Notes under the pieces: model-generated
What the model saw: only the letters and a program-made list of their open reading frames with translations
Database searches by the model: none
Told to the model about the DNA's origin: nothing
Translations under genes and position numbers: made by a program
Assembly: GCA_903936705.1 (NCBI GenBank)
Contig: CAIZWN010000035.1
Span: forward strand, 1 to 64,000
DNA: 64,000 nucleotides
Reading direction: 5' to 3'
Source: an uncultured Myxococcales bacterium
GTDB lineage: Bacteria; Myxococcota_A; UBA9042; DTJE01
In this document: piece by piece, positions 10,012 through 59,716 of the stretch
How the letters are laid out: each line of letters starts with the position of its first letter
How positions within the stretch are numbered: the first letter of the stretch is position 1

Positions 10012-10045
10012 TCAACGGCCGCTTCATTAACGCAAACCGAGTCAG

Positions 10046-10813
10046 TCAGGCATTGCGCTCCCAGATCAACCGCAGCCCCTCCAGAGTCAGATCCGGAATG
10101 ACCTGATCGATCGCTGTCGAATCGCCACACAGCAGGGTCGCAAGGCCACCAGTCGCCAGAACCCGCACCGGTTCGCGCAACTCGGCCTTCATCCGGGTCA
10201 CCAGGCCCTCGACCATGGACAGGTATCCAAAGTAGGCGCCCGACTGGATGCTGTGGACGGTGTCGCGACCAATAACGGTGTCGGGACGCACCACATCAAC
10301 ACGCGGCAGCTTCGCGGTTCGCATGAACAGGGCGTCCAGCGAGACGGTGACGCCGGGAACAATGACGCCGCCAAGATACTCGCCGGCAGCGGTGATCGCA
10401 TCAAAGGTCGTTGCCGTACCGAAATCCACGATCACCAGGTCTGAGTCGGGATATCGGCGATGCCCCGCCACGGCATTCACGATACGGTCGGCACCGACAT
10501 CGCGAGGGCTGGAATACCGTACGACGATGCCGGTGTCGGTCCCCGGTCCCACCGCCAACGGTTCGACCTTCAGCCATCGCTGTGCCCACCCCGAAAAAAC
10601 TGCCGTCAGTGGGGGAACGACACTGGCCAAGACCGCAGCCTTGACGGCACCCGCCCCTATTCCCTCCATGCGCATCAGGCCTTCCATCAGGCACGCCACC
10701 TCGTCCGATGTCGAGGTCCGGTGGCTGGCCAGCCGGAATTGGGCAACAAGTCGATCGGCCTCGAAAAAGCCGATGACCGTGTTCGTATTGCCTACGTCAA
10801 TTGCTGCCAGCAT
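10046..10813 (-). CDS. coaX: Type III pantothenate kinase
   Basis: A 255-residue cytoplasmic kinase catalysing the first step of coenzyme A synthesis (pantothenate to 4'-phosphopantothenate). It has the family N terminus AIDVGNTNTVIG (phosphate-binding loop of the ASKHA fold), the central GADRIVNAVAG and VDFGTATTFD motifs, and GGVIVPG. The ATG at 10813 lies inside the 3' end of birA (17 nt overlap), which implies coupled translation. It ends 34 bp from the convergent lipoprotein gene. A partial decayed copy of its 3' end is present near 44300-44395. Confidence 0.96.
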   Translation of the reverse strand: MLAAIDVGNTNTVIGFFEADRLVAQFRLASHRTSTSDEVACLMEGLMRMEGIGAGAVKAAVLASVVPPLTAVFSGWAQRWLKVEPLAVGPGTDTGIVVRYSSPRDVGADRIVNAVAGHRRYPDSDLVIVDFGTATTFDAITAAGEYLGGVIVPGVTVSLDALFMRTAKLPRVDVVRPDTVIGRDTVHSIQSGAYFGYLSMVEGLVTRMKAELREPVRVLATGGLATLLCGDSTAIDQVIPDLTLEGLRLIWERNA

Positions 10814-45367: not shown

Positions 45368-46048
45368 ATGGCACGCGTAGCATTCGTTCCTGTTCTGTTT
45401 GTAATTCTTGTGGCTTTACCTTCCTGTTACACCCAGCACAAGTCTGCAAGTCTTTCCGCGGATTGCGGAAACCGCAGGATCGGGGTGCTGGTCCTGGACG
45501 ACAACCAGCGCCCAATGAACAGCCCGCTCACTCATGTCTACGATGCCTTGAACATCTCGGGTTTCCAACCGGTTCTTCTGAACGAAATGGCATCAAAGGC
45601 TCTTCTTCAGGAACTGAAGTCAACAAGCTTGGTTGTTTCGTACTCGGCCGGTGTCTTGAAGGCAACGAGCAAGGCAGAAGTGAAGCTTGATCGGCTTGTT
45701 GAGAACTTCTCGGGCCAGATGGGTTCTTCCGCCGTTGTAAGCGAGTCTGCGGCCGAGCTCAAGAGAATCGCGACCGAACTCAAGCTTGACCTGATCCTGC
45801 TGCTCACCAATACGTCCGTCAGCAACCTCGATTTTGACGCCACGGCCATAATCTTTCGTACCGACTCATTCAACATTCTCGCCTCCTGGTCCATGCGACG
45901 GTCCGGTCATACGGCAGGCCTAGCGGTCGGAGCCATGTTCACTTGGGGCCTTGCAGGATTCGGGTTCATAGGCGCGGAAAGCAAGTCAATGGCGCTTCTG
46001 ATGGACAAGGTCGCAGAGAATGTTCGAGGCTTTCGGTGTTCACGCTGA
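45368..46048 (+). CDS. Lipoprotein of unknown function
   Basis: A 226-residue protein with a clear GGTGGAGGTC ribosome site before the ATG, a signal peptide and lipobox LPSC. The body starts CGNRRIGVLVLDDNQ and alternates strands and helices (SKALLQELKSTSLVVSYSAG, ELKRIATELKLDLILLLTN), then a Gly-rich hydrophobic stretch (HTAGLAVGAMFTWGLAGFGFIG). No family was recognised. Base composition is visibly less GC-rich than its neighbours, which suits recent arrival next to tRNA-Phe. Confidence 0.7.
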   Translation: MARVAFVPVLFVILVALPSCYTQHKSASLSADCGNRRIGVLVLDDNQRPMNSPLTHVYDALNISGFQPVLLNEMASKALLQELKSTSLVVSYSAGVLKATSKAEVKLDRLVENFSGQMGSSAVVSESAAELKRIATELKLDLILLLTNTSVSNLDFDATAIIFRTDSFNILASWSMRRSGHTAGLAVGAMFTWGLAGFGFIGAESKSMALLMDKVAENVRGFRCSR

Positions 46049-46258
46049 TTCACCCTAATTCGCCGCTGAACCACACCACACCGGATGACATGATTGCCAA
46101 GGAAGATCGTTTCATGGCTGCAATTTCTTGGGGTGTGCCCGAATTTGTGCCGTTTGCTACCCGGTTGCTACCCCGATAGGGCCTAAAACGGCCCAATTCA
46201 GGCTAGGCGACAGACTTGCCGCGTCAGCGGCTTAGTCTTGAATTTATTGGGGTTTTCT

Positions 46259-46334
<76 letters not shown>

Positions 46335-46354
46335 GTAGTCGTCAAGGCGGGTGT

Positions 46355-46383
46355 TTTTAACGCAGAGGCTGACCGGGTGTCAA
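46355..46383 (-). promoter_or_regulatory. Promoter of tRNA-Phe
   Basis: TTGACA (46383-46378), a 17 nt spacer and TTAAAA (46360-46355) on the minus strand lie immediately upstream of tRNA-Phe. Confidence 0.6.
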
Positions 46384-46405
46384 TACCAAAGTTCAAAAAG
46401 CCATC

Positions 46406-46434
46406 TTGAACCATTGGGGCCGGACGTGTAGAAT
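46406..46434 (+). promoter_or_regulatory. Promoter of tRNA-Pro
   Basis: TTGAAC (46406-46411), a 17 nt spacer and TAGAAT (46429-46434), ending 17 nt before tRNA-Pro. The tRNA-Phe and tRNA-Pro promoters diverge back to back in 80 bp. Confidence 0.65.
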
Positions 46435-46451
46435 CCGGGCGCTTTGGGAAC

Positions 46452-46525
46452 CGGGGAGTAGCGCAGCCTGGTAGCGCACCTGCTTTGGGAGCAGGACGTC
46501 GTCAGTTCGAATCTGGCCTCCCCGA
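46452..46525 (+). tRNA. tRNA-Pro (TGG anticodon)
   Basis: Acceptor CGGGGAG pairs with CTCCCCG; anticodon stem CCTGC/GCAGG holds loop TTTGGGA (anticodon TGG); the T loop is AGTTCGAATCT. CCA is not encoded. Confidence 0.96.
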
Positions 46526-46602
46526 CTTGATTTCAATAACTTACGCGAAGGTTGATGGGGCTGCCTTCCCTCATCGAACCTGGCATGTTTCAGCCTGTCC
46601 GA

Positions 46603-46630
46603 TTGCCTATCAACGCTAATCCGATATAAT
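46603..46630 (+). promoter_or_regulatory. Promoter of the cation efflux gene
   Basis: TTGCCT (46603-46608), a 16 nt spacer and perfect TATAAT (46625-46630). The leader before the GTG at 46655 is short and contains AGGA. Confidence 0.65.
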
Positions 46631-46654
46631 TTCTCCGCGTTTGTAGGAAATGAC

Positions 46655-47578
46655 GTGGGCACCAACGACATTCATCACGGGCACGAGGGACAGGATCTTG
46701 CGGGCTGCCACGGAATGAAGACCGGGCAAAGACTCGGAGCCACGCTTGGAATAATCCTGCTGTACATGGCAGTCGAGGTTGCCGGCGGTATATGGACCGG
46801 GTCGCTGGCCCTGCTGTCCGACGCCGGACACATGGCGTCGGATGCGGCGGCACTTGGCCTGTCCCTTTTTGCCTTGTGGATAGCCCAGCGCCCGCCGACA
46901 CCTCACCGCACGTTCGGCTACTACCGCGCCGAGATTCTGGCCGCACTGGTCAACGCAGCGGCACTATTCGCCGTGGCGGTCCTGGTCATCATAGCCGCCG
47001 TTGAACGGTTGCAGGCACCCAGGATGGTCATGGGCGGACCCATGCTGGCGATCGCGACCGGCGGCCTTCTTGTCAACCTTGCTGGCCTGGCTTTACTGCA
47101 CGGCGTAAGAGGCCAAAGCCTGAATATTCGTGGCGCATTCCTTCACTTGCTGGGAGACACCCTTGGCAGTCTGGGCGCCATGTTGTCGGGCGCTGCCATC
47201 CTGGGCCCGGGTTGGACTTGGGCTGATCCTGTCGCATCGATCGTGATCGCGACACTGATCGTGTTCTCGGCATGGCGACTGCTGAAGGACGCATTATCCG
47301 TGCTGATGGAGGGAACGCCCGCCCATGTCGATCCCGATCGCCTGCGCACGGCGATCCAGGAAGTGCCAGGTGTCTGCGAGATCCATGATCTGCACATCTG
47401 GACCATAGGCAGTGGCCTGCACAGCCTGTCGTGCCACGTTCTAGCGGATCGCTCCCGCCCCTACGAAGACCTGCTGGCTGGCATCCGCAGCGTTGTGGCG
47501 GCATCCAATATCGGCCACGTGACAATCCAGATCGAATCCCGGAATTGCGGACTGGACTGCCAGGCCCCCCCCGGCTAG
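46655..47578 (+). CDS. Cation diffusion facilitator (CzcD/ZitB-like)
   Basis: A 307-residue inner-membrane metal/proton antiporter with six transmembrane helices and the metal site HMASDAAALG (His and Asp of the HxxxD helix) paired with LGDTLGSLGAM (LGDxxxS). A His-rich start (HHGHEG) and a cytoplasmic C-terminal domain (EVPGVCEIHDLHIWTIGSGLHSLSCHV) are typical of zinc or cadmium exporters. It starts with GTG behind AGGA and ends 4 nt inside the convergent MMPL gene's stop. Confidence 0.93.
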   Translation: MGTNDIHHGHEGQDLAGCHGMKTGQRLGATLGIILLYMAVEVAGGIWTGSLALLSDAGHMASDAAALGLSLFALWIAQRPPTPHRTFGYYRAEILAALVNAAALFAVAVLVIIAAVERLQAPRMVMGGPMLAIATGGLLVNLAGLALLHGVRGQSLNIRGAFLHLLGDTLGSLGAMLSGAAILGPGWTWADPVASIVIATLIVFSAWRLLKDALSVLMEGTPAHVDPDRLRTAIQEVPGVCEIHDLHIWTIGSGLHSLSCHVLADRSRPYEDLLAGIRSVVAASNIGHVTIQIESRNCGLDCQAPPG

Positions 47579-50058
47579 CCAGCCTTCGCGCGACTCATCA
47601 CGAACTTCGGGCGGAAGATCCAGATCAGCGTGGGCAGCAGCAGCAGCGAACCGATCATCGACATCGACATCCAGAACACCAGAAGAAGGCCCATGTCGGC
47701 CTGGAACCGCAGGAACGAGAACGTCCAGAACACGACGCCCGCAACCATCGTCATCGCGGTCACCACGACCGCCTTGCCCGACGTCGCCATTGCCGTGACT
47801 ATGGCCTCGGCCAGATCACCGCGGATACGAACCTCTTCCTCGATGCGACTGACTACGTACAGGCCGTAATCCACGCCTAATCCGACGCCAAGTGCCACGA
47901 TGGGCACCGTATTCACGTCAAGGCCTATGCCACGCAGGCCCATCAATGCGTATGTAAGATAGTTGGACACTACCAGTGGAATCATGAAGAACAGACCCGC
48001 CAGCACCGACCGATACGAGATCGCGCACACCAGGAACACCACCAGGAACGCCATCAGCGTAACCAGCGCCTCGGTGCGCATGACCACCTCGTTCACCGCC
48101 GACAGAAGTCCCGCGAACCCACCGGCCAGACGGAACCTGGCCCCCGGCTCGACCCGCGGACACTCGTCGCTCGCCCCAGCAACTGGCTTCTCGCCCTCCT
48201 CGGCAATCATACCGGCCTCGGCAGTCGCACCGGCATCGCCGCCAGCCGGCGGCGCCTTCTGGGCACACGCCTCGGCTGCAGCCAGGGCCGCCGGGTCGGC
48301 CATCTTCATCGGATTCGCCTCGACGAAGGCCCTCAGCTTCTCGACCACCTTTCGCAACGTCTCGCCCTTGTGGTCCTTCAAATAGATCGCGATGTTAGCG
48401 TTCCGGCTGTCAGGGGTCACGAAACGCGACAGGTCACCCGGCTCGCTGGCACCATAGATCATCTCGAGGAAGAAGCCCGACTCGCGACCGTCCGTCGGAG
48501 TCAGTTCCCACCTGGGATCGCCGCCATGCATCGCCCTTATGATCGGCGGGATCAAATCGCCAATCGACGAAGTGCCGCCTACCTCCGGCAGCAACGACAT
48601 CTCGCGCTGCAACATCTGTATCTTGGACAGAACGTCGGGACTCTTGATGGCGTTCCACGCCTGGCCTTCGACTATGACGTTCAGGATGTCGGTGTTGCCG
48701 AACTTGCGCCCGATCGCCTCGGTATCCTGGTTGTAAGTCGAGTCAGGCCACAGCATCGGCGTGCCTGGATAGACATCGCCGATCTGAACCGTCCGGGCCG
48801 CCAGGAAGCCGCCAATTCCAAGGACGACCGTGCCGGCCAGGATCGTCCACTTGCGCGGCCCGATGGAAAACCGACCTACGGCCGCCAGGAACCGCGCCAG
48901 GGGGCCCCATTCCGCCGATGGCAAACGCTTCGGCGGTGGCAGGTAGGACAGCAGCACCGGGTTGAAGACCAGGTCCGTGACTACGATGCTCATGCCCCAG
49001 AAGGCGCCCATCACGGCAAGCTTCTGCATCAGTGGAATAGGCGTCAGAAGCACTGCCAGCATCGCCAGCACGTCGGCCAGAATGCCTACGAACCCAGGCT
49101 CCCACAGCCCGGCCAGCGTCCTCTCGGCCGCCACCCGCGTGTTGGTCGAAATCACGTACTCCTCGTTATAGCGCTCGATCAACTGAACCGAATGCGACAA
49201 CGCTCGAGCACTTATGATGAATGGCACGACCAGGATCAGCGGATCGAAGTTGTATCCCAGCACCCCCATGAAGCCCAGCGACCAGACTGCACTAAGGACT
49301 GCCGTCAGCGTTGGGATCAGCACGCCACGCAGGTCCCGGAAATTGATCGCCAACAGCAGGATCATCGCAACAATTGTAGCGATGAACAGCCACGTCAACT
49401 GGTTGTAATGGTTCAGGATATACCCCAACATCACAGGACGACCGATGATGTGGACCTGAGTGTTGGCGTCCTCGACCTTTCCACCGATCTCATGGAGGCG
49501 CTGGTACACCTCCTTGACGTCCATCTGATCCTCGAAGAAACCTGCGACAATAAGCGCCGCCTTGTCGTCCTTTGCCACCAGCGACCCGTGAAGACGCGGG
49601 TTCGTGTGAACAAGGTCCTTCAGCGCCTGGATCCCTTCCTCTGTTCGCGGGATCTCGGGCCACATGATCGGCGAAGCCTGGAACCCGGCAGTCGAATCGA
49701 CCGTGATGTTCTTGACCTTCCGCTGCGCCAGCGACAGGACCTGGTAGTTGTTGATTCCGGGCAAAAGCTCCAGTTCCTTGGTGATACTGCGGATCTTCTC
49801 CAACACCGCCGTCTGGAAGATGTCCCCTTCCTTGACTTCGATGTCCATGATGACCGCGTTCGCACCACCGAAGACGTCCTGGAATTCCTTGTACGTCTCG
49901 ACAAACTCGTGGTCCTCGGGGAACAGGTCGATCAACTGGCTGGCGACCTTGACCTTGGGAATCTGCGTGGCAAACCCGGCGGTCACCACCACGGTCAGGA
50001 TCAGGAAAAACAGCCGATACTGCATGACGAACCGCGCAAGGCGGCCAGAGAAGTTCAT
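47575..50058 (-). CDS. MMPL/RND family transporter
   Basis: An 827-residue inner-membrane protein with the RND repeat plan: an N-terminal helix (LFFLILTVVVTAGF), a large periplasmic loop, about five helices (LFIATIVAMILLLAI onward), a second helix and loop, then five more helices (ALVTLMAFLVVFLVCAISY onward). It lacks MFP or outer-membrane channel partners. Relatives of this type export lipids and other hydrophobic compounds (HpnN-like), so a hydrophobic cargo is a reasonable inference. Its ATG overlaps the YCF48-like gene's stop (ATGA), and it is last in an operon with DUF1302 and DUF1329 genes. Confidence 0.9.
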   Translation of the reverse strand: MNFSGRLARFVMQYRLFFLILTVVVTAGFATQIPKVKVASQLIDLFPEDHEFVETYKEFQDVFGGANAVIMDIEVKEGDIFQTAVLEKIRSITKELELLPGINNYQVLSLAQRKVKNITVDSTAGFQASPIMWPEIPRTEEGIQALKDLVHTNPRLHGSLVAKDDKAALIVAGFFEDQMDVKEVYQRLHEIGGKVEDANTQVHIIGRPVMLGYILNHYNQLTWLFIATIVAMILLLAINFRDLRGVLIPTLTAVLSAVWSLGFMGVLGYNFDPLILVVPFIISARALSHSVQLIERYNEEYVISTNTRVAAERTLAGLWEPGFVGILADVLAMLAVLLTPIPLMQKLAVMGAFWGMSIVVTDLVFNPVLLSYLPPPKRLPSAEWGPLARFLAAVGRFSIGPRKWTILAGTVVLGIGGFLAARTVQIGDVYPGTPMLWPDSTYNQDTEAIGRKFGNTDILNVIVEGQAWNAIKSPDVLSKIQMLQREMSLLPEVGGTSSIGDLIPPIIRAMHGGDPRWELTPTDGRESGFFLEMIYGASEPGDLSRFVTPDSRNANIAIYLKDHKGETLRKVVEKLRAFVEANPMKMADPAALAAAEACAQKAPPAGGDAGATAEAGMIAEEGEKPVAGASDECPRVEPGARFRLAGGFAGLLSAVNEVVMRTEALVTLMAFLVVFLVCAISYRSVLAGLFFMIPLVVSNYLTYALMGLRGIGLDVNTVPIVALGVGLGVDYGLYVVSRIEEEVRIRGDLAEAIVTAMATSGKAVVVTAMTMVAGVVFWTFSFLRFQADMGLLLVFWMSMSMIGSLLLLPTLIWIFRPKFVMSRAKAG

Positions 50059-51017
50059 GGCTCACCCCATCGTTTCCAAGTCCGCCCGCCATCGGTCGTT
50101 CTCAAAACCAACGACCTCCCGCCAACCAGAAACCCCTTCCCATCCTGGCCAACCTGTGCGCCGCCCAACCAGAAGTGACTGGGCGCCTTCCATGCGACGA
50201 ACGGCCCCTGCGGCGCTTCGGCCGAAAGAAGTATCCCGCCGTTGCCGCTGACCAAGGTACGCGCCCCTGCTCCGGTGATGCGGAACAGGTGCTGTGTCGT
50301 CCCCGTCTCGACCGTCGAAAACGTCTTCCCGGCATCGGTGCTGAGAACCAGGACCCCGCCCGCACCGGCTGACATCACTGCACCACCCGGCAGGACCGCC
50401 ACGCCGAACAGGCTGTCATTGACCCCGCTTGAGACCGACTCCCACGTTACCCCGCCGTCACCGGTCCGGAAAATGGTCCCAAACTCGCCTACGACAATCG
50501 CCTCGGTCGACGAAATCATCGCCACGCCGTTCAGCGACGGGTCTTCTCCCTCGGGAGCCACCCTGACCGGCACCCACGTTGCACCGCCATCATCGGTTCG
50601 CATTGCCGTCGCGAAGTTTCCGACTGCCATGCCGTGAGTGGCATCGACAAAATCGATCGCAAGAATCGGCTCGGTCGTGGCAGTCGCCTGCTGAACCCAG
50701 GTTGCGCCACCATCCCTCGTGGCAAGAATCTTGCCGCCGCGGCCCGCGATCCAACCGGTCGACTCATTCACAAAGTCCACGGCAAAATAGGCCGACCTGT
50801 CTGGCTTGCCCTGGGACTCGAATGTCGCCCCGCCATCGCCCGAGTGCAGCACGGTCCCAGGAAAGCCCACGATCCACACGTGCTTGCCCTTGACCGCCAC
50901 ATCGAACAACGGATCGGCCGGCGCCACGCCCGGAAGACCCACGGCCGCCAGGGCCGGCGTAACAACAAGGATCACAACGATCCACGCCGCCAGGAACAGT
51001 GTTTGGCGGATACCCAT
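50055..51017 (-). CDS. YCF48/BNR-repeat periplasmic beta-propeller protein
   Basis: A 320-residue protein: signal peptide from the ATG at 51017 (AAGGAG 6 nt upstream), then repeated Asp-box/YCF48 blades with the D-GGATW motif (SGDGGATFE, TRDGGATWV, TDDGGATWV, TGDGGVTWE, TTDGGRTWK). These domains form propellers; YCF48 helps assemble photosystem II in cyanobacteria, but non-photosynthetic homologues next to RND transporters are of unknown function. It sits between the DUF1329 gene (66 nt) and the MMPL gene (overlap). Confidence 0.88.
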   Translation of the reverse strand: MGIRQTLFLAAWIVVILVVTPALAAVGLPGVAPADPLFDVAVKGKHVWIVGFPGTVLHSGDGGATFESQGKPDRSAYFAVDFVNESTGWIAGRGGKILATRDGGATWVQQATATTEPILAIDFVDATHGMAVGNFATAMRTDDGGATWVPVRVAPEGEDPSLNGVAMISSTEAIVVGEFGTIFRTGDGGVTWESVSSGVNDSLFGVAVLPGGAVMSAGAGGVLVLSTDAGKTFSTVETGTTQHLFRITGAGARTLVSGNGGILLSAEAPQGPFVAWKAPSHFWLGGAQVGQDGKGFLVGGRSLVLRTTDGGRTWKRWGEP

Positions 51018-51083
51018 GCCAATCTCCTTGCAAGAAGCGATTCGTTGATTCAAGACTCGCGGGAAAATATCACAAGCGACCGA

Positions 51084-52379
51084 CTATTTCCCCATCTTCT
51101 GCAGATTTGACAGGGAGAACTGGGCAGGGTCCAAACCCTTGTTCGCGAAAGCGTTATAGGATGGGAACGCCGTCGCGTGTTCGGCCTGCAAGTCGATCGT
51201 CAGCGAGGTGCCGATCGGTGGCGGGTACTTGTCCATGTCAGGACATTCGTTATAGGCGTTGAAGATCACCTTCCACAGCTTGCCCTTCTTGTCGTAGGTC
51301 TCCTTGAACGGGATGTAGAAGGTATCGGCGTCGAAATAGAACACCATCTTGCTGTATGGATAGTCCTTGAACTTGGGAATGGCTTCGACCACGTAGACGG
51401 CCCGCGGCTCCCACTTGGCCTTGAAGTTCCAATGCGGCGGGGTCTTGAAGTCAAACGTGCGGTCCCGGCCTTCCTTGCCAGCCTGAATGGCTGAGTGCAT
51501 CGGCGCCAGGATGGTGGTCTTCTTGATCAGTTTCCAGCTCATCCACTCGGGGTAGCCCATGAACCCACGAACGTCCTCGTAGAGCATGTCCGTACTGTTC
51601 CAGGCGTCACCACGCGTTCCGAAGGACGCCTTCATCGTGCGGCGCATGGTCGGGATATAGATCCAACCCTCCTGGTCCTTGGGCTCGACATAACGAGAGT
51701 ACAACGCGCCAAAACCGGCTTTGTCGTACGGCTCGATCGCCCAGGTCATGGAGGTGTACTGGACGTTCTTCTTCTGGAATTCGGGAATATGGGGCTTGGG
51801 CGCCAAATCGGTGCGGAACATCGCGCGGATGATGTACAGCCAACGCCACTCCTCCGACCGCTCGACACCGCTCTTTGCGCTGATCCAGTAGACGCCGTAA
51901 TGGAAACCACCGTCATCGCCGTTGTATGAATACTGGTAGTTCCACGCGACCTCGATGCCGCTCTGTGGGTCTGGGAACGGCAGTCCAGCCGAGTACCCGG
52001 TAAGACCCAGCTTTCGCGGATTGTCGCCGGAGTCGATCAGCGTCGCCTGGTTCGCGTACTTGTTGGAAGCCTCGATATAACCGACGGACGGATGGATCGG
52101 CTTGTACTTCGTGGTCCACATCTTCAGACCGTATTTTTCCAGCAGCAGGCCCAGCGCAGCCGGTATGTATTTCTCCCACTTCTTGTAGTTCGTGCCGTCC
52201 AGAACATCACCGGCAGTGTACCCGGCCAGATCGGGCGCAAAGCCGACGGCTTCGGTCCAATTGTCCTTCGTCAGGGTAACGCCTGACTTCAACTTCGCGG
52301 ATGCTCCACCGGCAGTAAAGACCAGCGCCGTCGCCAGCACCACGGCCATCCCACGCGTCATGCGCCCAGCTTCCATCAT
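51084..52379 (-). CDS. DUF1329 (LolA/LolB-fold) periplasmic protein
   Basis: A 431-residue secreted protein, start ATG at 52379 with AAGGAG 4-5 nt upstream, signal peptide to ASA. It has the family's characteristic aromatic beta-rich body (GYPEWMSWKLIKKTTILAPMH, YVVEAIPKFKDYPYSKMVFYFDADTFYIPFKETYDKKGKLWKV). DUF1329 proteins are structurally related to lipoprotein-carrier folds and are usually encoded with DUF1302 outer-membrane proteins. This one lies 66 nt downstream of such a gene. A shuttle for hydrophobic material across the periplasm is inferred. Confidence 0.88.
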   Translation of the reverse strand: MMEAGRMTRGMAVVLATALVFTAGGASAKLKSGVTLTKDNWTEAVGFAPDLAGYTAGDVLDGTNYKKWEKYIPAALGLLLEKYGLKMWTTKYKPIHPSVGYIEASNKYANQATLIDSGDNPRKLGLTGYSAGLPFPDPQSGIEVAWNYQYSYNGDDGGFHYGVYWISAKSGVERSEEWRWLYIIRAMFRTDLAPKPHIPEFQKKNVQYTSMTWAIEPYDKAGFGALYSRYVEPKDQEGWIYIPTMRRTMKASFGTRGDAWNSTDMLYEDVRGFMGYPEWMSWKLIKKTTILAPMHSAIQAGKEGRDRTFDFKTPPHWNFKAKWEPRAVYVVEAIPKFKDYPYSKMVFYFDADTFYIPFKETYDKKGKLWKVIFNAYNECPDMDKYPPPIGTSLTIDLQAEHATAFPSYNAFANKGLDPAQFSLSNLQKMGK

Positions 52380-52445
52380 CGTCTCCTTCATTCCAGGCCC
52401 GGACTGGTTGAAACCCCACACCCGGGCAAATCCATAAAGGTCGCC

Positions 52446-54323
52446 CTAGAACTGGTAACGGACCCGGACGTTCACCTCGTCGCGATCACGGAACATGCCC
52501 AATCCCTTGTAGGGATTGTCCCCGAAGAACTGGTTCACGGCCATAAGGATGCGCCAATGGTTGCCAATGGCTACATCCAACTGCAGGCTCATGAAGCCTC
52601 CATTACCGGGAAGCCATGCGCCCAGGATGCGAGGGGTCAGCATCCCGTGCAGGTAGGACGTGAACAGCGCACCGACCAGGCGGAAGGAATGCTCCTGCGC
52701 CTGCGTGCTGTCGTACCCAGGAATCTCGAGTATTGAATCGCCTCCGTGAGTCTTGCCATACGCATCCACCCAGTGACGCTGGTAGTCAGCGATCCACGTG
52801 TGCATGAACTGCAAGACGAACATGAAGGACTGCTCGGGGTTCAGTACCCGTATCCTGGTCGGCCGCTGCAACGTCAGCGCCCACGAGAAAACCTTGCGCT
52901 TGGGCTGGTCGAAGAAGAGCACCGTCCCCTTGGGTCCCACGAGATCCTCGGCAACCTCTGGCGATGCCGCGATACGCTTGGTCAACGAATTTACCGGGAA
53001 GGTGCGGTCAGGCTCGAAAGCGGCCTCCAGTTTCACGTTCATGGTCACCGGACTGGGGATGGTAGTTTCCAGCGATGCGCCCACGATGTGCTGGCGCGGG
53101 AAGCCCAGATAGACGTCATACCCCTGGGTCCCCGAGTTGAAAGGTATCGCCACAAAGTTCGGAATCGGCGGACTCTGGACATGGTTCCAGAAATAGGCCA
53201 GCGTGTACGTGAAGTTGCCAGCCTCGCCACGCCAGCGTGCGCCCACACGGCTGTTTCGAACATCGCGCCCGGGGTACTGGAAGATCTTCTGGTTGATCGC
53301 CAGCGGATGAACCGAAGCGTCTCCCTGCTGGGGCGTCGGAGGCAGGCCCCACGCCCCTACAAAGGTCAGTGGCACCGTCACGGTGTCCTCGGGATTGTCC
53401 AGCATCGGCACCCAGACAGCCTCCAGCGACCCCTGCATCGCGGGAATTTCCAGTTGCGCCTTCAGCATCCACTGGGGAATGCGCTGATCCTCGTACGACT
53501 CCAGCGCACCAAAGTGCCAGGTGCTGTTGGTCGGATTGATCACGTCCAGCAGCCGGAACTGTCCAGTTTCGCCCCACGATACCTGCTGGCGGCCGACCCG
53601 GAAGTTCAACAGCTTGTGTGCCTCGATATCGACGTACAACTCGCGGATGGCCAACTCGTTGTAGTAACGGTCACGCACCCACTGGCGCCGCTTCTTGTCC
53701 TCGCCAAGATAGCCCGCCCCCGGTACCTGGGCATCGCGGTCCGACGGCAGTTCCGAGCTGAGCACTCCGCGCAGGATCGTGTGCAGCGCAATCCACTTCG
53801 TCGGCTGCCAGTCGGCCTCGATCTGCAGTGTATTTCGCAGCATCGACATCTGACCGAGCTTGCCACCGTGGTCCGTGGGATACGTCTTGTTGGCCTTCTC
53901 ATCAACCTCGTAGCGATTCTTTTCCCAGCCGAAGAAGACTCCGAACTGGCTCTGAATGTATCCGTTGATCTGGAATTTGGAGGCCTCCGCTGCCCCGCCT
54001 TCTGCACCGCTTGCGCCACCACCACCGGAGGCAAACGGATCACCCCCGGCCGCTGCCGCTGCGCTGTCGGACACAGGCTCGGGAAACGGCTCGCTGTACT
54101 CGGGTTCGGCGCCACCATCCTTGGCAGATGCCTCTGCATCCGATGCCACAGGCACTTCGACACCCGTCCCGGCGGGGGGCTGCGGCTCGACCGTAGGCAC
54201 CGCAGACCCGGGCGCTTGCGCACCACTGGCCACTGCAGGCATCGATCCGGCCACAAGCACAAACGCGGCCGCGAGGGCCGCCAAAATACCGGAGACAGAG
54301 AAGGGACGCGACTGGCCGTGCAC
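52446..54323 (-). CDS. DUF1302 outer-membrane beta-barrel protein
   Basis: A 625-residue protein. The GTG at 54323 has GGAGG 6 nt upstream. A signal peptide and a 100-residue Ala/Pro/Gly-rich linker precede the barrel, which begins near INGYIQSQFGVFFG. It contains ELYVDIEAHKLLNFRVGRQQVSWGETGQFRLLDVINP, the DUF1302 signature, and many alternating strands ending in RYQF, the outer-membrane C-terminal Phe. It heads the DUF1302-DUF1329-YCF48-MMPL operon. Confidence 0.9.
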   Translation of the reverse strand: MHGQSRPFSVSGILAALAAAFVLVAGSMPAVASGAQAPGSAVPTVEPQPPAGTGVEVPVASDAEASAKDGGAEPEYSEPFPEPVSDSAAAAAGGDPFASGGGGASGAEGGAAEASKFQINGYIQSQFGVFFGWEKNRYEVDEKANKTYPTDHGGKLGQMSMLRNTLQIEADWQPTKWIALHTILRGVLSSELPSDRDAQVPGAGYLGEDKKRRQWVRDRYYNELAIRELYVDIEAHKLLNFRVGRQQVSWGETGQFRLLDVINPTNSTWHFGALESYEDQRIPQWMLKAQLEIPAMQGSLEAVWVPMLDNPEDTVTVPLTFVGAWGLPPTPQQGDASVHPLAINQKIFQYPGRDVRNSRVGARWRGEAGNFTYTLAYFWNHVQSPPIPNFVAIPFNSGTQGYDVYLGFPRQHIVGASLETTIPSPVTMNVKLEAAFEPDRTFPVNSLTKRIAASPEVAEDLVGPKGTVLFFDQPKRKVFSWALTLQRPTRIRVLNPEQSFMFVLQFMHTWIADYQRHWVDAYGKTHGGDSILEIPGYDSTQAQEHSFRLVGALFTSYLHGMLTPRILGAWLPGNGGFMSLQLDVAIGNHWRILMAVNQFFGDNPYKGLGMFRDRDEVNVRVRYQF

Positions 54324-54404
54324 GTTCGCCTCCAGGCAAGAAGATCACGCCGGGGCGCGAGACATCAACAGCCCCGCGCCCCGGCGATCAGGTTCTCGAA
54401 AACA

Positions 54405-55343
54405 CTAGTTGGCGCAATCGACCGGAGTGGGATTGGTCGCCGTGTTCACGTAAATGTTGCTGATGCAGATGCTCTCTGGGAAGGAGAAGATGTCGACCGA
54501 ACCGACCTCGACATCATTCACCAGCGCGCTCATCCTGATCTTGCCTGTCGAGTCGATGGCGACGTTGCCCGCCAGGACGTACGACAGATTCTTGCTGGTG
54601 GTGGGGAAATCGGCGATCGGGCCTGGGAGGCCACTGGACGGGTTGAAATACCGGTACTCGCCAGCCGGATCCGTCGCGATCGTGGCGCAACCGACCTTTT
54701 CTTCCTCGCCGTCATCGATCTTGTCATTGCCGTTCAAGTCGTTGAAGAAGTACACGCCGCCCGCCACGATCCCCTTCGACGAATCGACCGTCAGGCCGGC
54801 CGCCGCAGGAGCAAGCACGTACGTGGTTTCGGATACCAGCCACAGCGTCTCGTCCTGGGCCTCTGAATCGATACCGAACTGATAGGTGTCGCGGCTGTCG
54901 GCCATGGAAACCTTGAAACCTACCTTGATGCCCTTTTCCAGTTCGATGGACACGGCGCCGTCCGCTCCCGACATTACGGACTCACCGGTCGCAATACCGG
55001 TCAGGTTGTCGAGAACCTCGACTTTCGCGCCTTCGACTGCGGACTTGGACTGGAAGTCCTCCAGAATCGCCTTGAAGGTGCCCTTCACAACGACCGGAAC
55101 GTCCACGGCCACATCGGCAACCACCACGTCGACGGCGACTTCGGCTACAACATCCGCAGCCACTTCGGCAACGACATCTGCGGCCACTTCGGCCACTACG
55201 TCCTTGGCCACATCGGCAGGTACGTCACCGGTGTCGGTAACCGGCACGAAATTGTCGGTGCCACTGTCGCTGCTGTCGCAGCCTGCCATCACGAACGGAA
55301 AAGCAACCAACACCAGTACAGGAAACAGACGATTCTTGACCAT
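54405..55343 (-). CDS. Lipoprotein with Asp/Val/Ala repeat region
   Basis: A 312-residue predicted lipoprotein (AGGAGG before the ATG; lipobox MAGC). Residues 40-83 repeat DVVAEVAA-type units, followed by a beta-rich domain with a Ca-binding-like loop (DLNGNDKIDDGEE) around residue 205. No function is recognised. It is 81 nt upstream of the DUF1302 gene and may belong with that operon. Confidence 0.78.
   Translation of the reverse strand: MVKNRLFPVLVLVAFPFVMAGCDSSDSGTDNFVPVTDTGDVPADVAKDVVAEVAADVVAEVAADVVAEVAVDVVVADVAVDVPVVVKGTFKAILEDFQSKSAVEGAKVEVLDNLTGIATGESVMSGADGAVSIELEKGIKVGFKVSMADSRDTYQFGIDSEAQDETLWLVSETTYVLAPAAAGLTVDSSKGIVAGGVYFFNDLNGNDKIDDGEEEKVGCATIATDPAGEYRYFNPSSGLPGPIADFPTTSKNLSYVLAGNVAIDSTGKIRMSALVNDVEVGSVDIFSFPESICISNIYVNTATNPTPVDCAN
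55095..55226 (-). repeat. Tandem repeat coding Asp-Val-Ala-Glu units
   Basis: Within the lipoprotein gene the sequence around DVVAEVAA recurs about five times with a 24 nt period (DVAKDVVAEVAADVVAEVAADVV and onward). It encodes a low-complexity spacer between the lipid anchor and the folded domain. Confidence 0.6.
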
Positions 55344-55415
55344 GAGTTCATCCTCCTATGCGGAAAACCATCCAGGCACAATCCTGTTGAGCGCGTCTAG
55401 ATTCGTCCATTTGCA

Positions 55416-55427
55416 TGACAATTGTCA
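55416..55427. promoter_or_regulatory. 12 bp perfect palindrome upstream of the repeat lipoprotein gene
   Basis: TGACAATTGTCA is a perfect inverted repeat 73-84 nt before the ATG at 55343, and on the minus strand it overlaps a TTGACA hexamer. It could be a dimer-binding operator at a promoter, but no good -10 sits at 16-18 nt, so the assignment is weak. Confidence 0.3.
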
Positions 55428-55526
55428 AGTGTCGTGACGGTTATCGTTTGCCTTTTCGAGCAACCTTGCCCCGACAAGCCGCCGGAGAAACGAGCCGAAT
55501 GCATACCTGGACTTGACTTGCCTGCT

Positions 55527-56303
55527 CTAGCCGACGTTCGGAAGTTGGCCACCAGCCGCCCGACGGGCACACAATAAAGCAGCGCCAATCGCGGTGACAC
55601 GCTGCGGGGAAGGAGGCACCGAAACCGGCACGCCGAGGGCCAACGAAAGTGAGCGAACAACCGCCCGAGACTGGACGGTCCCGCCAGTGCAGACAACCGG
55701 GGCGACCATTCCAACCTGGCGTCCAAGTGACGCGACCCGGCTGCAGACCGACTGCAAGACTCCCTTCAGAATGCGGGCTGGCGGATGGCGCAGGGACAAC
55801 AACCCCACGACCTCGGACTCGGCAAACACCGTGCACGTGCTGGTCACAGGCAGCGGTTCGACGTCCTCGGATGCGACGTCGTCGAACTGGTCAAACGGCA
55901 CGTGAAGAACGCGGCTCATCACCTCTAGGAAACGACCGGTGCCTGCCGCACACCTGTCATTCATCGCGAAGTCCAGGACTCGGCCCGCCTCGACGCGAAC
56001 CACCTTGCTGTCCTGTCCGCCAATATCCACGACCGTCGCGGCATCAGGCGCAACCAGACCGACGCCGGCTGCCAGCGCGGTGATCTCGCTGACCTGCCCC
56101 AGACGCGGTTCGTGGAGAGCTCGGCCGTAGCCAGTGGTAATTACCGGCAGACCCTCGGCCCCGCATTCACGCAAAGCGTTTTCGGCCGCAAGACGCATGT
56201 CGGGCATGGACGGAAGAACCACCGTCATCACGACTCGGCCGTCCTCGATGACGGCACACTTGGTCGCTGTCGATCCGATATCAAGTCCGGCAAACCGACT
56301 CAT
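55527..56303 (-). CDS. 2-hydroxyacyl-CoA dehydratase activase (BadF/BadG/HgdC family)
   Basis: A 258-residue ASKHA-fold ATPase with FAGLDIGSTATKCAVIEDG (phosphate loop), GYGR, VVDIGGQDSKVV, the cluster-ligand cysteines in NDRCAAGTGRFLEVM and STCTVFAESEV, and CTGGTVQSRAVV. It uses ATP to inject an electron into the dehydratase. The ATG overlaps the preceding gene's stop (ATGA). Confidence 0.95.
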   Translation of the reverse strand: MSRFAGLDIGSTATKCAVIEDGRVVMTVVLPSMPDMRLAAENALRECGAEGLPVITTGYGRALHEPRLGQVSEITALAAGVGLVAPDAATVVDIGGQDSKVVRVEAGRVLDFAMNDRCAAGTGRFLEVMSRVLHVPFDQFDDVASEDVEPLPVTSTCTVFAESEVVGLLSLRHPPARILKGVLQSVCSRVASLGRQVGMVAPVVCTGGTVQSRAVVRSLSLALGVPVSVPPSPQRVTAIGAALLCARRAAGGQLPNVG

Positions 56304-57499
56304 CCATTTGCCCCAAGCACCTCGAAGAACGGCACCAACCGCTGCTGGAGGTTGTCGAACGATACCGATCTCGGGTCGGCCATGTCCGCCTCGATTACCA
56401 CGCCGGCAGCACCGGTTTCGGCCGTCAGCGCCGTCTTTACACCGAACTGCCCCAGCGAATAGCGCTTGCAGGATCGGTTCGAGTGCAGAACGAATCCACC
56501 GGCACCAAACTTCTTGATCATATTCGACAAAACCTTAACCCGGTGGGCCGCGCCATGGTTCAGAATGATGTCCGTATAGACCCGGGCCAGACTGGAGAAC
56601 GGGTCGGAAGGATCGAGGTTCTCGATCGTCCACGCACTGGTGTAGGTGTCGGCGACCAACGAGACATGGTAGTTCTCGAACAGCTTCTTCAACTGCTTGT
56701 GAGCGGGCCAGATGGCGATGTTGTCCCAGACCACGCGGGCCCTCTCGTCGGGTACCGACGAAACTCCGGCGCTGGCCCGCTGTTTCACCTCGTCACGCAA
56801 CTGGCGGTAGTAGGAAATGCATCGCCTGGTGCCACGCATCGAGACGATCGGCGCCATGTGAACGAATGCGTCAAACGAGGTGAACGGGGCCGGGTGTTCC
56901 GCCGCCATGTCCAGAACCTCGGCCCACAGTCCCAGCGCCGACCTTGACCTTTCGACTACAGCACCCAGGCGCTTCTCGGTCACGGTCCGGATGCCCAGCC
57001 GGGACAACTCGGCCGCGATGTGGACCAACTGGTCGCGAACGTACGCAACGTCATTTTCGGTAGGAGCGGCGTCGTTGAAAGGGGTGTCCAGAAACAGCAG
57101 CGGGACGTTGAACCGCTCGGCCGTGACCCTAAACCAGTTCTGCACCGTCCCGCAGATGTTGTTCGACACCAGGACAACGTCTGGAGGAACCAACCGTCCC
57201 AGCGGGGTGTTTCCGCTGATCTGGCTGCCGACGTCCACGCGGAAATAGCTGCACAAATCACGCGAGTACCCCAGTGCCTCGGTCTGCTCGGCCATCCCCA
57301 GCGCCATCCCCCTGGCCGAACAGATGGCCGCGTGGTTCTCGGGATAGAAGGGAATGAATCCGGCGGCCAGCACCATCTCGACCGGCGAGCCGGACGTGAC
57401 CCATGCGACCGGGCGCCCGATTCGCGACCCCAGGCGCGTCCAGAGGACCTGGTTTCGGATGGTGGTCTGCAGGCGCTTGTTTGCACGCAGTTTGATCAC
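56300..57499 (-). CDS. 2-hydroxyacyl-CoA dehydratase-type subunit (HgdB/BcrB family)
   Basis: A 399-residue iron-sulfur protein of the 2-hydroxyacyl-CoA dehydratase/benzoyl-CoA reductase family. It keeps Cys residues suited to a [4Fe-4S] cluster (SRDLCSYF, SNNICGTVQ and HSNRSCKRYS). It starts with GTG overlapping the partner's stop. Substrate cannot be told from sequence; the family covers lactyl-, 2-hydroxyglutaryl- and phenyllactyl-CoA dehydratases and aromatic-CoA reductases. Confidence 0.85.
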   Translation of the reverse strand: MIKLRANKRLQTTIRNQVLWTRLGSRIGRPVAWVTSGSPVEMVLAAGFIPFYPENHAAICSARGMALGMAEQTEALGYSRDLCSYFRVDVGSQISGNTPLGRLVPPDVVLVSNNICGTVQNWFRVTAERFNVPLLFLDTPFNDAAPTENDVAYVRDQLVHIAAELSRLGIRTVTEKRLGAVVERSRSALGLWAEVLDMAAEHPAPFTSFDAFVHMAPIVSMRGTRRCISYYRQLRDEVKQRASAGVSSVPDERARVVWDNIAIWPAHKQLKKLFENYHVSLVADTYTSAWTIENLDPSDPFSSLARVYTDIILNHGAAHRVKVLSNMIKKFGAGGFVLHSNRSCKRYSLGQFGVKTALTAETGAAGVVIEADMADPRSVSFDNLQQRLVPFFEVLGANG

Positions 57500-58599
57500 G
57501 GTAACGACTCCAGCAAAGTCTGCACGCGGGTCCGGTCCCCTCCTGTCAAAGTCGTCTGACGATCGACCTCAAGGAGGACCGAGGGAATGCCGACCTCGCG
57601 CAGGGCGGCGACCAGGGACGGTGCCTCGAAGGCGCTGGGATCGCAGAACTTGTAGTGCAATAGAATGGCGGCCTTGGCCCCGGCAGCGCGCGCCCGTCCC
57701 GCAACACCACGCGGGCGGCCAGACACGAAACGTTCGGGGCTGTGAACCGGGCGATGCACCAGACTGTCGGCAATCGCCTTCAGACGATTAGGTTCTTCCG
57801 CGCGCACGCGCCGTCCGGCCTCGCGGGAACCGGTATTCGTGTCGTCGCTAACAACGGACGCCCCCATTTGCTCCAGGTCCCGAATCCACTGGACCGAAGG
57901 CACCAGTTCGCCAGACAGCAACACCGGAATACCCTCGCTGCCTGCCGATGAAACGGATGCCGAGAATGCCTCGTCAAAAGCGGCCAGGAAGCTTTCTACG
58001 TCCATGACCTGCGCGGCGATTGCGGCGGCGTAGACCCGCGAGGCCTGAACATCGCGGGACGGCAACCCGGCGAACAGGCCGTCCAGCCGAACGCGAACGG
58101 CCTCTCGACCAAGTATGGCTGCATCAAGTGCAGCCGCGTCAATCGGGCGCCCAAGGATTGCCTGAACCTCGCGGCACAAATCCTCAAGAACCACGGCTGC
58201 ATGGCGACCAGCCGCGTCCGATTCGACGCCCACTGGCAGACGGAAGGTCACGACAGGCAGGGTTGGAATCGCCGCATCAAGAATGCCTGGCACAGTCGTC
58301 AGCGCATCGCACCCACTGGTGGCCCCGACAAGGCCGACCGGAAGATCCCGACGCAGAAATGTTTCGCACATGGAACGAACCACCGTGCAAGCAAATGTCT
58401 GCAGAATCCCGTCGCCAAGCGGATACCCGTCCATCGGACGAGGCGGCATTCGAATGCCAGCCAGACCGAAGGCGTCGAAAATTTCCAGTGGGAAGTACGA
58501 CGACAAGCCGATTCCCAAAGGCCGTCCCTCCGAGGCTGCACGGCTCTGTGCCTCGGCAAACGGGTCCTGCGCAACACGTTCCAGTCGGTTCGAGCCCAT
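57496..58599 (-). CDS. 2-hydroxyacyl-CoA dehydratase-type subunit (HgdA family)
   Basis: A 367-residue partner of the preceding subunit, opening IGLSSYFPLEIFDAFGL, with cluster-type cysteines in FACTVVRSMC, ATSGCDALTT and HYKFCDPSAF. The ATG at 58599 has GGAGGT 7 nt upstream; a GTG at 58608 lacks this. Together with the next two genes it forms a coupled three-gene unit of two dehydratase subunits and an activase, without a CoA-transferase gene. Confidence 0.85.
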   Translation of the reverse strand: MGSNRLERVAQDPFAEAQSRAASEGRPLGIGLSSYFPLEIFDAFGLAGIRMPPRPMDGYPLGDGILQTFACTVVRSMCETFLRRDLPVGLVGATSGCDALTTVPGILDAAIPTLPVVTFRLPVGVESDAAGRHAAVVLEDLCREVQAILGRPIDAAALDAAILGREAVRVRLDGLFAGLPSRDVQASRVYAAAIAAQVMDVESFLAAFDEAFSASVSSAGSEGIPVLLSGELVPSVQWIRDLEQMGASVVSDDTNTGSREAGRRVRAEEPNRLKAIADSLVHRPVHSPERFVSGRPRGVAGRARAAGAKAAILLHYKFCDPSAFEAPSLVAALREVGIPSVLLEVDRQTTLTGGDRTRVQTLLESLP

Positions 58600-58744
58600 G
58601 CCCTGCACCTCCGTCGCGGTAGTATGACATCGGTTATCGCGCGGTCAAGGCTCCCTTTGGCGCAATGCGGCTTGACTTGCAACGAGGGGAACGAAATACT
58701 TACCGCCACGGTACAAGTGTTAGCCGGGTCGATGGGACCTGCTG

Positions 58745-59716
58745 ATGGAACAGGAGATTGTGGTGATGAAAAAGAACCCGTCGCCCGTTGCTTCCCCCGG
58801 GAAGGTACCAGTCAAGGCCTCGGTACAGGCAACCTCTAAGAAGCCTGTGCCAGCACCTGTCAAGGCGAAGCCCGCAGCAGCCGAATCGAAAGTTGCGGCA
58901 AAAAAAGCAGCAACACCTGCGCCTGCTGCGATCAAGCCGGCAAAGGCGGCACCTAAGGTCGAGGCAAAGAAGGCGCCTGCCCCTGTGCCTGCCAAGCCGG
59001 CAAAGGCAGCACCCAAGGTCGAGGCCAAGAAAGCGCCTGCCCCTGCGCCTGCTGCGGTCAAGCCGGCAAAGGCGGCACCCAAGGTCGAGGCCAAGAAAGC
59101 GCCTGTCCCTGCGCCTGCTGCGGTCAAGCCGGCAAAGGCGGCAACCAAGGTCGAGGCCAAGAAGGCGCCTGCACCTGTCGCGGTCAAGCATGCCAGGCCG
59201 GTGTCAAAGGTCGTGGACCCCAATGTCGAAGTTGATGACCAGTTCGAGGAAATGGAAGAACCGGTAATTCGCCACGCGGTAAAGAAGGCTGCACTGTCGG
59301 GTACAGACGAGGAAATGAAGCGTCTATCATCGCAGGAAATCAAAGAGTTCTGCGACATCCTGCAAGAGAAGCGCGGTGCATTGATCGAGTCAGCCCGAGA
59401 CACCCTGGCCGCTCAGGAGGAACTCGAGGTTCGCGCTCCCGACGAGGTTGATCAGGCTTCGACCGAGTACGACCAATCGTTCGAGTACCGCATGCGCGAC
59501 CGCGAGAAGTTCCTGTTGCGCAAGATCGAGAAGGCCCTGGCGCGAATCGACGAAGGAGAATACGACCTTTGCGAGTCGTGCGGGAATCCGATCGGTCGCA
59601 AGCGCCTGATGGCGCGACCCGAGACAACTTATTGCATCGTCTGCAAGGAAGACCAGGAGCGCCAGGAAAAGATGTTCCAGAAAAAGCGCCAGATGCGCGC
59701 CACACTGGAATTCTGA
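58745..59716 (+). CDS. DksA/TraR-type C4 zinc-finger protein with long Ala/Lys/Pro N-terminal tail
   Basis: A 323-residue protein. Residues 1-155 are Ala/Lys/Pro-rich with four near-identical repeats (KPAKAAPKVEAKKAPAP and variants), resembling histone-H1-like tails. Residues 175-323 are a DksA-type domain: a coiled coil (EIKEFCDILQEKRGALIESARDTL...FEYRMRDREKFLLRKIEKALARI) then the zinc finger CESCG...CIVC. DksA binds RNA polymerase and, with ppGpp, alters transcription. The coiled-coil tip carries DEVDQAST, where DksA has its acidic tip residues. ATG at 58745 is used, or the ATG at 58766 behind AGGAG. Confidence 0.85.
   Translation: MEQEIVVMKKNPSPVASPGKVPVKASVQATSKKPVPAPVKAKPAAAESKVAAKKAATPAPAAIKPAKAAPKVEAKKAPAPVPAKPAKAAPKVEAKKAPAPAPAAVKPAKAAPKVEAKKAPVPAPAAVKPAKAATKVEAKKAPAPVAVKHARPVSKVVDPNVEVDDQFEEMEEPVIRHAVKKAALSGTDEEMKRLSSQEIKEFCDILQEKRGALIESARDTLAAQEELEVRAPDEVDQASTEYDQSFEYRMRDREKFLLRKIEKALARIDEGEYDLCESCGNPIGRKRLMARPETTYCIVCKEDQERQEKMFQKKRQMRATLEF
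58934..59188 (+). repeat. Tandem repeats of about 60-66 nt in the DksA-like gene
   Basis: Four copies encode KPAKAA(P/T)KVEAKKAP plus a variable Pro/Ala/Val stretch (residues 64-148). The third and fourth copies differ from the second by only a few bases, so recent duplication is likely. Confidence 0.8.

Follow-up and report, generated by a model that had tools for sequence, protein, structure and literature searches.

We report that an AmeABCD-type transport operon in an uncultured Myxococcales bacterium begins one gene earlier than its four-gene core, at the gene of a lipoprotein (here LP), and that LP is a lineage-specific member of the operon. The four-gene core (DUF1302, DUF1329, YCF48 and MMPL) is of a known kind, AmeABCD, described in 2018; what is new here is the addition of LP, together with a further operon that lacks the pump and has a ceramidase-like gene. 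The window, i.e. the whole stretch of 64,000 nucleotides that was analysed, is part of contig 35 in a genome of 4.85 Mb (96% complete), and its features of interest are collected in Table 1. In our reading the operon probably encodes a proton-driven shuttle of the AmeABCD type that moves hydrophobic molecules between the inner membrane and the surface, with LP as an outer, lipid-binding partner.

Table 1. Coordinates and profile matches of the operon and its immediate surroundings in the window
Feature	Position	Strand	Evidence and remarks
MMPL/RND inner-membrane pump, AmeD-like	47575..50058	-	PF03176 2.9e-27
YCF48/BNR propeller, AmeC-like	50055..51017	-	PF14870 (PSII_BNR) 7.8e-26 and BNR repeats
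DUF1329, LolA-like periplasmic carrier, AmeB-like	51084..52379	-	PF07044 4.8e-51; PF17131 LolA_like 2.2e-18; PDB 3bk5 E 1.4e-6
DUF1302 outer-membrane beta-barrel, AmeA-like	52446..54323	-	PF06980 5.7e-28
GC-rich hairpin between LP and DUF1302	54349..54385	-	RNA fold -42.3 kcal/mol, z -5.1 versus shuffles
LP lipoprotein, 312 aa	54405..55343	-	Lipobox Cys22; linker of Asp/Val-rich repeats; two beta domains; directly upstream of DUF1302
Promoter-like site upstream of LP	55399..55428	-	TTGACA 55428-55423, 18 nt spacer, GAATCT 55404-55399
HGD-D, HGD-D, acyl-CoA dehydratase activase	58608-55527	-	Pfam, NCBIfam; directly upstream of LP

The first-pass annotation had described a unit of four co-directional genes with 66-nt gaps and an ATGA overlap, and reading frames, sequence and Pfam matches bear this out exactly on the minus strand: two gaps of 66 nt separate DUF1302 from DUF1329 (52446/52379) and DUF1329 from YCF48 (51084/51017), and an ATGA is common to the YCF48 stop and the MMPL start. 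The genes and their order are thus real; the boundary drawn around them was incomplete, LP being a fifth co-directional member. Ribosome-binding-like sequences precede the starts of DUF1302 (GTG, with GGAGG just 5' of it), DUF1329 and YCF48 (both ATG). The stop/start overlap of YCF48 and MMPL (ATGA or GTGA) is kept in 7/7 loci checked and the gene order in all ten cassettes of close relatives (see below), which together argue that the set is more than chance. The gene for a CDF cation-efflux protein (46655-47578, plus strand) meets the operon tail to tail, its 3' end overlapping the MMPL stop by four bases.

All four core Pfam families score above their cut-offs, and the earlier assignment of DUF1329 as LolA-like is upheld by the LolA_like profile (67 bits versus a cut-off of 30) together with the PDB match in Table 1. 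NCBIfam models score lower: the Ycf48 model reaches 95 bits on the propeller gene (cut-off 326), and the best model of the pump, HAE3 (TIGR00921, 1.2e-47), reaches 162.5 bits (cut-off 351.9). The DUF1302 protein ends in VRYQF and its AF2 model, mainly of long strands, is of low-to-middling confidence (pLDDT 68, pTM 0.67); the best Foldseek matches are AlgE and OmpF-type porins (E approximately 1e-10 to 1e-8, TMq 0.28-0.41), and a PDB sequence search gave a chance match only. That the model is like ordinary porins and unlike a lipid-specific channel counts against the shuttle proposed here.

LP matched no family in Pfam or NCBIfam, and we found no description of it in the literature, where the searches covered the DUF, MMPL, YCF48, HAE3 and nanopod names; LP itself has no name. 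In an alignment of 15 sequences (A2) the lipobox Cys is at least 90% conserved, Cys 219 and Cys 310 are invariant, and the repeat-rich linker varies in length between rows. Gene set, order and the upstream LP recur in 10/10 pump-bearing cassettes of close relatives (the window and L053-L061), and LP is present at 24 of the 29 nearest loci from the named genome set (L097-L125), two counts that are not independent because L097-L125 lie partly on the same contigs as the close-relative loci. At four of the five near loci lacking LP (L109, L115, L120, L121) the contig ends before its expected place; where the DNA reaches that place LP is found in 24/25, the sole exception being L116, with 10 kb upstream free of DUF1302 and LP. 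LP stands beside the cassette in 0/51 distant loci, which together with the 29 nearest make up the 80 DUF1329 loci kept of 217 confirmed matches.

The AF2 model of LP, built from 15 sequences, has a mean pLDDT of 81.2 and a pTM of 0.70, with values >90 over most of residues 81-310 and a disordered linker. Its top Foldseek match is the lipase of Archaeoglobus fulgidus, and VIA-align superimposes both LP domains on the C-terminal part of that enzyme (residues 242-474; Z 11.7, rmsd 3.7, 174 aligned residues), a likeness of fold only at an identity of approximately 10%. Transthyretin-like, SusC-NTE and CnaB domains, some with equal Z, match the first LP domain only. The C-terminal domain of the A. 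fulgidus lipase serves long-chain substrates. It has been described, in the part of the literature used here, as a unique domain with a small lid (PMC6501381). On the strength of the modelled fold LP may bind lipid.

CTTGAC occurs in 9/14 LP upstream regions versus 0.51 expected from shuffles, and because of this enrichment we place the operon promoter before LP. The motif is absent upstream of LP in L055, L058, L059, L064 and L067, where L058 has TTGACA and L059 a variant; with a two-box promoter score the site in the window is not significant (p 0.11), nor are most single loci. A perfect palindrome, TGACAATTGTCA, at 55416-55427 overlaps the -35-like box of LP, is also present at the same-genus locus L054 and is a possible operator. 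A hairpin comparable to that between LP and DUF1302 was seen in the window and L056 only among 14 usable junctions (the L060 interval fell inside LP); we have considered it as a device that sets the level of LP.

Directly upstream of LP stands a trio of genes (two HGD-D and an activase) that NCBIfam scores as relatives of 2-hydroxyacyl-CoA dehydratase/benzoyl-CoA reductase, with only the activase passing the cut-off (TIGR00241); two of the three HGD-D matches in the genome lie here. The trio was rejected as part of the unit, being found in only 3/10 cassettes. One could still imagine that the cassette is tied to these genes and moves their substrate out or in: the trio immediately precedes the cassette in the window and at L058 and L059 (whose two contigs are also those of L097 and L098), and genes of these three types occur approximately 3.6 kb downstream of the cassette on the Azoarcus KH32C plasmid, whose pump belongs to another subclade. 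We regard such a tie as improbable, given that the trio was not found at the cassettes of 7/9 relatives (some on short contigs), including the same-genus L054, that no HGD match appears in any of the 51 distant loci among the matches listed, and that the promoter-like site stands between the trio and LP. From sequence, the trio hints at a CoA-linked anaerobic metabolism of the cargo, a hint insufficient to name it. Further along, an ORF on the plus strand (58745-59716, 323 aa) has an N-terminal half of Ala/Lys/Pro repeats and a C-terminal part that by eye resembles a DksA/TraR zinc finger.

The genes of the cassette are inherited together. The closest DUF1329 matches among named genomes come from uncultured Myxococcota or 'Deltaproteobacteria', and the pump shares 91% identity with its counterpart in 'uncultured Myxococcales bacterium Loclat_bin-06029'. 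In a pump tree of 34 rows the 30 cassette pumps form one clade (support 100/99), apart from the outgroups, four further MMPL genes from the same genome as the window, which sit on long branches; the window pump is one of 12 in a clade with 100/100 support whose members all come from LP-bearing loci. The window pump may belong to the AmeD lineage, for which these cassette pumps served as stand-ins. Pairwise distances among the four core proteins correlate at 0.94-0.98 (49 cassettes) and those between LP and the other cassette proteins at 0.70-0.87 (13 cassettes), values that include shared species history and do not prove contact between the proteins. At 31 of the 51 distant loci DUF1302, YCF48 and MMPL accompany DUF1329 within 8 kb and in the same orientation; at L139, L142 and L171 all partners are found on the opposite strand, along with a second DUF1329, and the other 17, several on short contigs, are without one or more partners.

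Besides LP at the start of the operon, the first-pass annotation, confined to the window, had overlooked a second operon of this genome, on contig 68 (L020), in which LP, DUF1302 and DUF1329 occur without YCF48 and MMPL. The same pump-less arrangement is present at seven loci of relatives (L063, L064, L066, L067, L068, L069 and L070), and at L062 and L065 the contig is cut before LP. A gene for a ceramidase-like lipoprotein follows 3' of DUF1329 in 7/10 of these loci (L020, L064, L065, L066, L068, L069, L070) and its start is visible at the contig end in an eighth (L067, the contig of L112); at L063 none was found before the contig end, and at L062 the gene that comes next has the opposite orientation. 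We call the gene 'ceramidase-like' only, since neutral ceramidase (PF04734) scores 31.5 bits on the L020 gene, just below the cut-off of 32.1; one distant homologue (L217) passes with 34.6 bits and the L064 gene has no Pfam match. Genomes with the pump-less operon mostly also have the pump-bearing one; the single DUF1329 of genome G001 is of the pump-less type. The ceramidase-like lipoprotein at L020 (contig 68 of our genome, G000, positions 8374-10062) lies directly 3' of DUF1329 and is kept in relatives (alignment A5); its Asp/Val/Ala repeat linker resembles that of LP.

The pump-less operon bears on the direction of transport. For the pump-bearing operon we incline, by a small measure, to efflux or outward transport, while our reading of the pump-less paralogue beside the ceramidase-like enzyme leans towards uptake. 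If uptake were the task of the whole system, LP would capture fatty-acid-like products, DUF1302 and DUF1329 would carry them inward, and MMPL would retrieve or protect. That an operon of LP, DUF1302, DUF1329 and a ceramidase-like lipoprotein does without a pump fits such a scheme, as does the resemblance of LP to the C-terminal part of a lipase, but the ceramidase match in this genome is weak (see above) and RND pumps are not known to act as importers. The published phenotypes, as far as given in the parts of the papers used here, point both ways: Pseudomonas putida requires its homologues (PP_0765/PP_0766 and PP_2018/PP_2019) to grow on Tween 20 (PMC10866462), but deletion of AmeABCD lowers tolerance (PMC6394551). 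Taken together, we consider uptake by the complete system rather doubtful.

The cassette is not the only setting of LP, as shown by orphan LP genes without adjoining cassette genes on contig 8 of our genome (L220) and in G052 (L226). Homologues were found in 86/377 genomes of the phylum; matches stronger than 1e-55 occur in 14 of these 86, all 14 of which have a DUF1329 match (strong in 12). DUF1329 itself is patchy (151/377 genomes), and many genomes have it with LP absent. Profiles detected no DUF1302, DUF1329, YCF48 or MMPL at 12 loci with weaker LP homologues (L210-L219, L228, L229), nine of which have another kind of barrel-like protein nearby and four a ceramidase-like gene, so that LP is paired with a ceramidase-like gene next to each of two barrel families. 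One such barrel, when tested, scored 109.7 bits with TIGR04551, below the cut-off of 300; homology between this barrel family and DUF1302 that sequence profiles can detect was rejected (hhalign probability 4.7%). At L211, L213, L215, L216, L218, L219 and L228 a conserved barrel-like protein (alignment A4) comes after the LP homologue, and a HEAT-repeat protein is also present in several loci with this pair; these loci look like another conserved surface operon. We tentatively raise the possibility that LP marks an undescribed surface lipid module of Myxococcota, composed of a lipid-binding surface lipoprotein, barrels from two or more unrelated families and often a secreted ceramidase-like lipoprotein, which here would be joined to an AmeABCD pump to give a complete lipid route from the surface to the inner membrane.

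For the shuttle that we favour, we infer the protein locations, the proton drive, the order of hand-over and the place and ligand of LP as follows. The MMPL/RND pump would take a small hydrophobic or amphipathic molecule from the inner membrane or periplasm, driven by the proton gradient, with the YCF48 propeller serving as a putative scaffold on its periplasmic face; the LolA-like DUF1329 protein would ferry the molecule through the periplasm to the DUF1302 barrel, and LP, probably at the outer membrane, may bind lipid or gate the barrel in this lineage. An unlikely variant would have the pump and DUF1329 bring a self-made lipid to the outer membrane in the manner of HpnN or BstA, the catabolic neighbours being incidental. 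HpnN and MmpL3 are among the MMPL relatives whose structures have been solved, DUF1329 is LolA-like, and no catabolic gene constantly adjoins the cassette in the lineage of the window; the HpnN, BstA and MmpL3 models of NCBIfam, however, reach only 51.8, 32.6 and 20.3 bits on the pump (cut-offs 751.85, 1400 and 1400), and the patchy distribution of DUF1329 would be odd for a structural lipid. The window pump shares the MMPL-type RND fold with these lipid pumps but lies far below their family cut-offs, and we know of no DUF1302 or DUF1329 partners for any of the three. Published phenotypes of homologues, in the parts of the papers used here, moreover involve foreign or growth substrates.

How Gram-negative bacteria can move very hydrophobic molecules across two membranes without a sealed tunnel is a question for which AmeABCD-type shuttles are good and little-studied candidates. 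The LP lineage, with its natural pump-less paralogue beside a hydrolase, gives a means of telling the outer half (LP, barrel and carrier) apart from the energised inner half, and it makes LP a testable partner for the DUF1302 barrel.

The four-gene set is by now documented in several bacteria, and the accounts that follow draw on parts of the respective papers (further background in PMC7012976, PMC3110197 and PMC3958437). The central idea of the first-pass annotation, a trans-envelope pathway without the usual MFP and TolC parts, remains the best reading, no MFP or outer-membrane efflux family being matched by Pfam among the 10 proteins from 45368-58608; it had already been published in substance for AmeABCD (PMC6394551), as also follows from the P. 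putida, ORM2a, phenol-regulon and Delftia papers. The set was accordingly rejected as undescribed. The remark in the first-pass annotation that the cargo is unknown is too strong for the family, where mutant phenotypes involve monoterpenes, Tween 20 and, second-hand, phenanthrene. Literature searches joining Myxococcota with these families gave a single paper, in which Myxococcota are not named, and a locus-tag search for the P. putida genes gave the Foldy paper alone as relevant.

In Betaproteobacteria, operons of DUF1302, PF07044, COG4447 and COG1033 belong to the AphR, AphS and AphT regulons and were proposed to act against toxic aromatics and solvent stress (PMC6449761); they share the four families in one operon with the window and differ in their phenol-pathway regulators, with no LP in the part of the report used. 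The 'nanopod' cluster of the benzene degrader ORM2a encodes a porin-like protein, DUF1329, YCF48 and MMPL and was proposed to move benzene in a direction unknown, its DUF1329 protein being among the most detected (PMC13101534); it differs in an extra universal stress protein and another hypothetical gene, again with no LP in the account available. Nanopods of Delftia hold DUF1302 and DUF1329 proteins, a YCF48 gene mutant there forms fewer vesicles, and deletion of the DUF1329 gene is reported, second-hand in PMC13101534, to affect growth on phenanthrene. In P. putida the families also act together, and published AF2 contacts suggest a periplasmic bridge; its genes lie at two separate loci, and the portion of the report used mentions no LP (PMC10866462). 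Plasmids carry further arrangements: YCF48-MMPL-DUF1302-DUF1329 in Aromatoleum aromaticum EbN1 (L092, amid acyl-CoA genes), the A-B-C-D order in Azoarcus KH32C (L094) and P. putida YC-AE1, DUF1329-DUF1302-YCF48-MMPL adjoining an aromatic meta-pathway segment in Vibrio alfacsensis (L096), and yet another in a Methylibium plasmid record; those of Aromatoleum, Azoarcus and Vibrio adjoin acyl-CoA or aromatic genes.

Among the closest known counterparts is AmeABCD of Castellaniella defragrans 65Phen, comprising AmeA (DUF1302), AmeB (DUF1329/LolA), AmeC (COG4447) and AmeD (RND/HAE3), whose deletion lowers monoterpene tolerance and alters the net influx of Nile Red; its composition and order are, according to the authors, conserved across a lineage (PMC6394551, Puentes-Cala and Harder 2018). 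As in the window, four families stand in the same order, the RND pump has a single partner in the outer membrane and two in the periplasm, and genes of the classical MFP or TolC type are absent from the cassette in the description used here. The authors suggest a possible MFP role for AmeB and AmeC themselves (PMC6394551), whereas for the DUF1329 protein we favour a carrier; no monoterpene island was seen around the window cassette, and in contrast to the four genes described for Castellaniella the Myxococcales system has LP in front and, elsewhere in the genome, a pump-less operon with a ceramidase-like gene.
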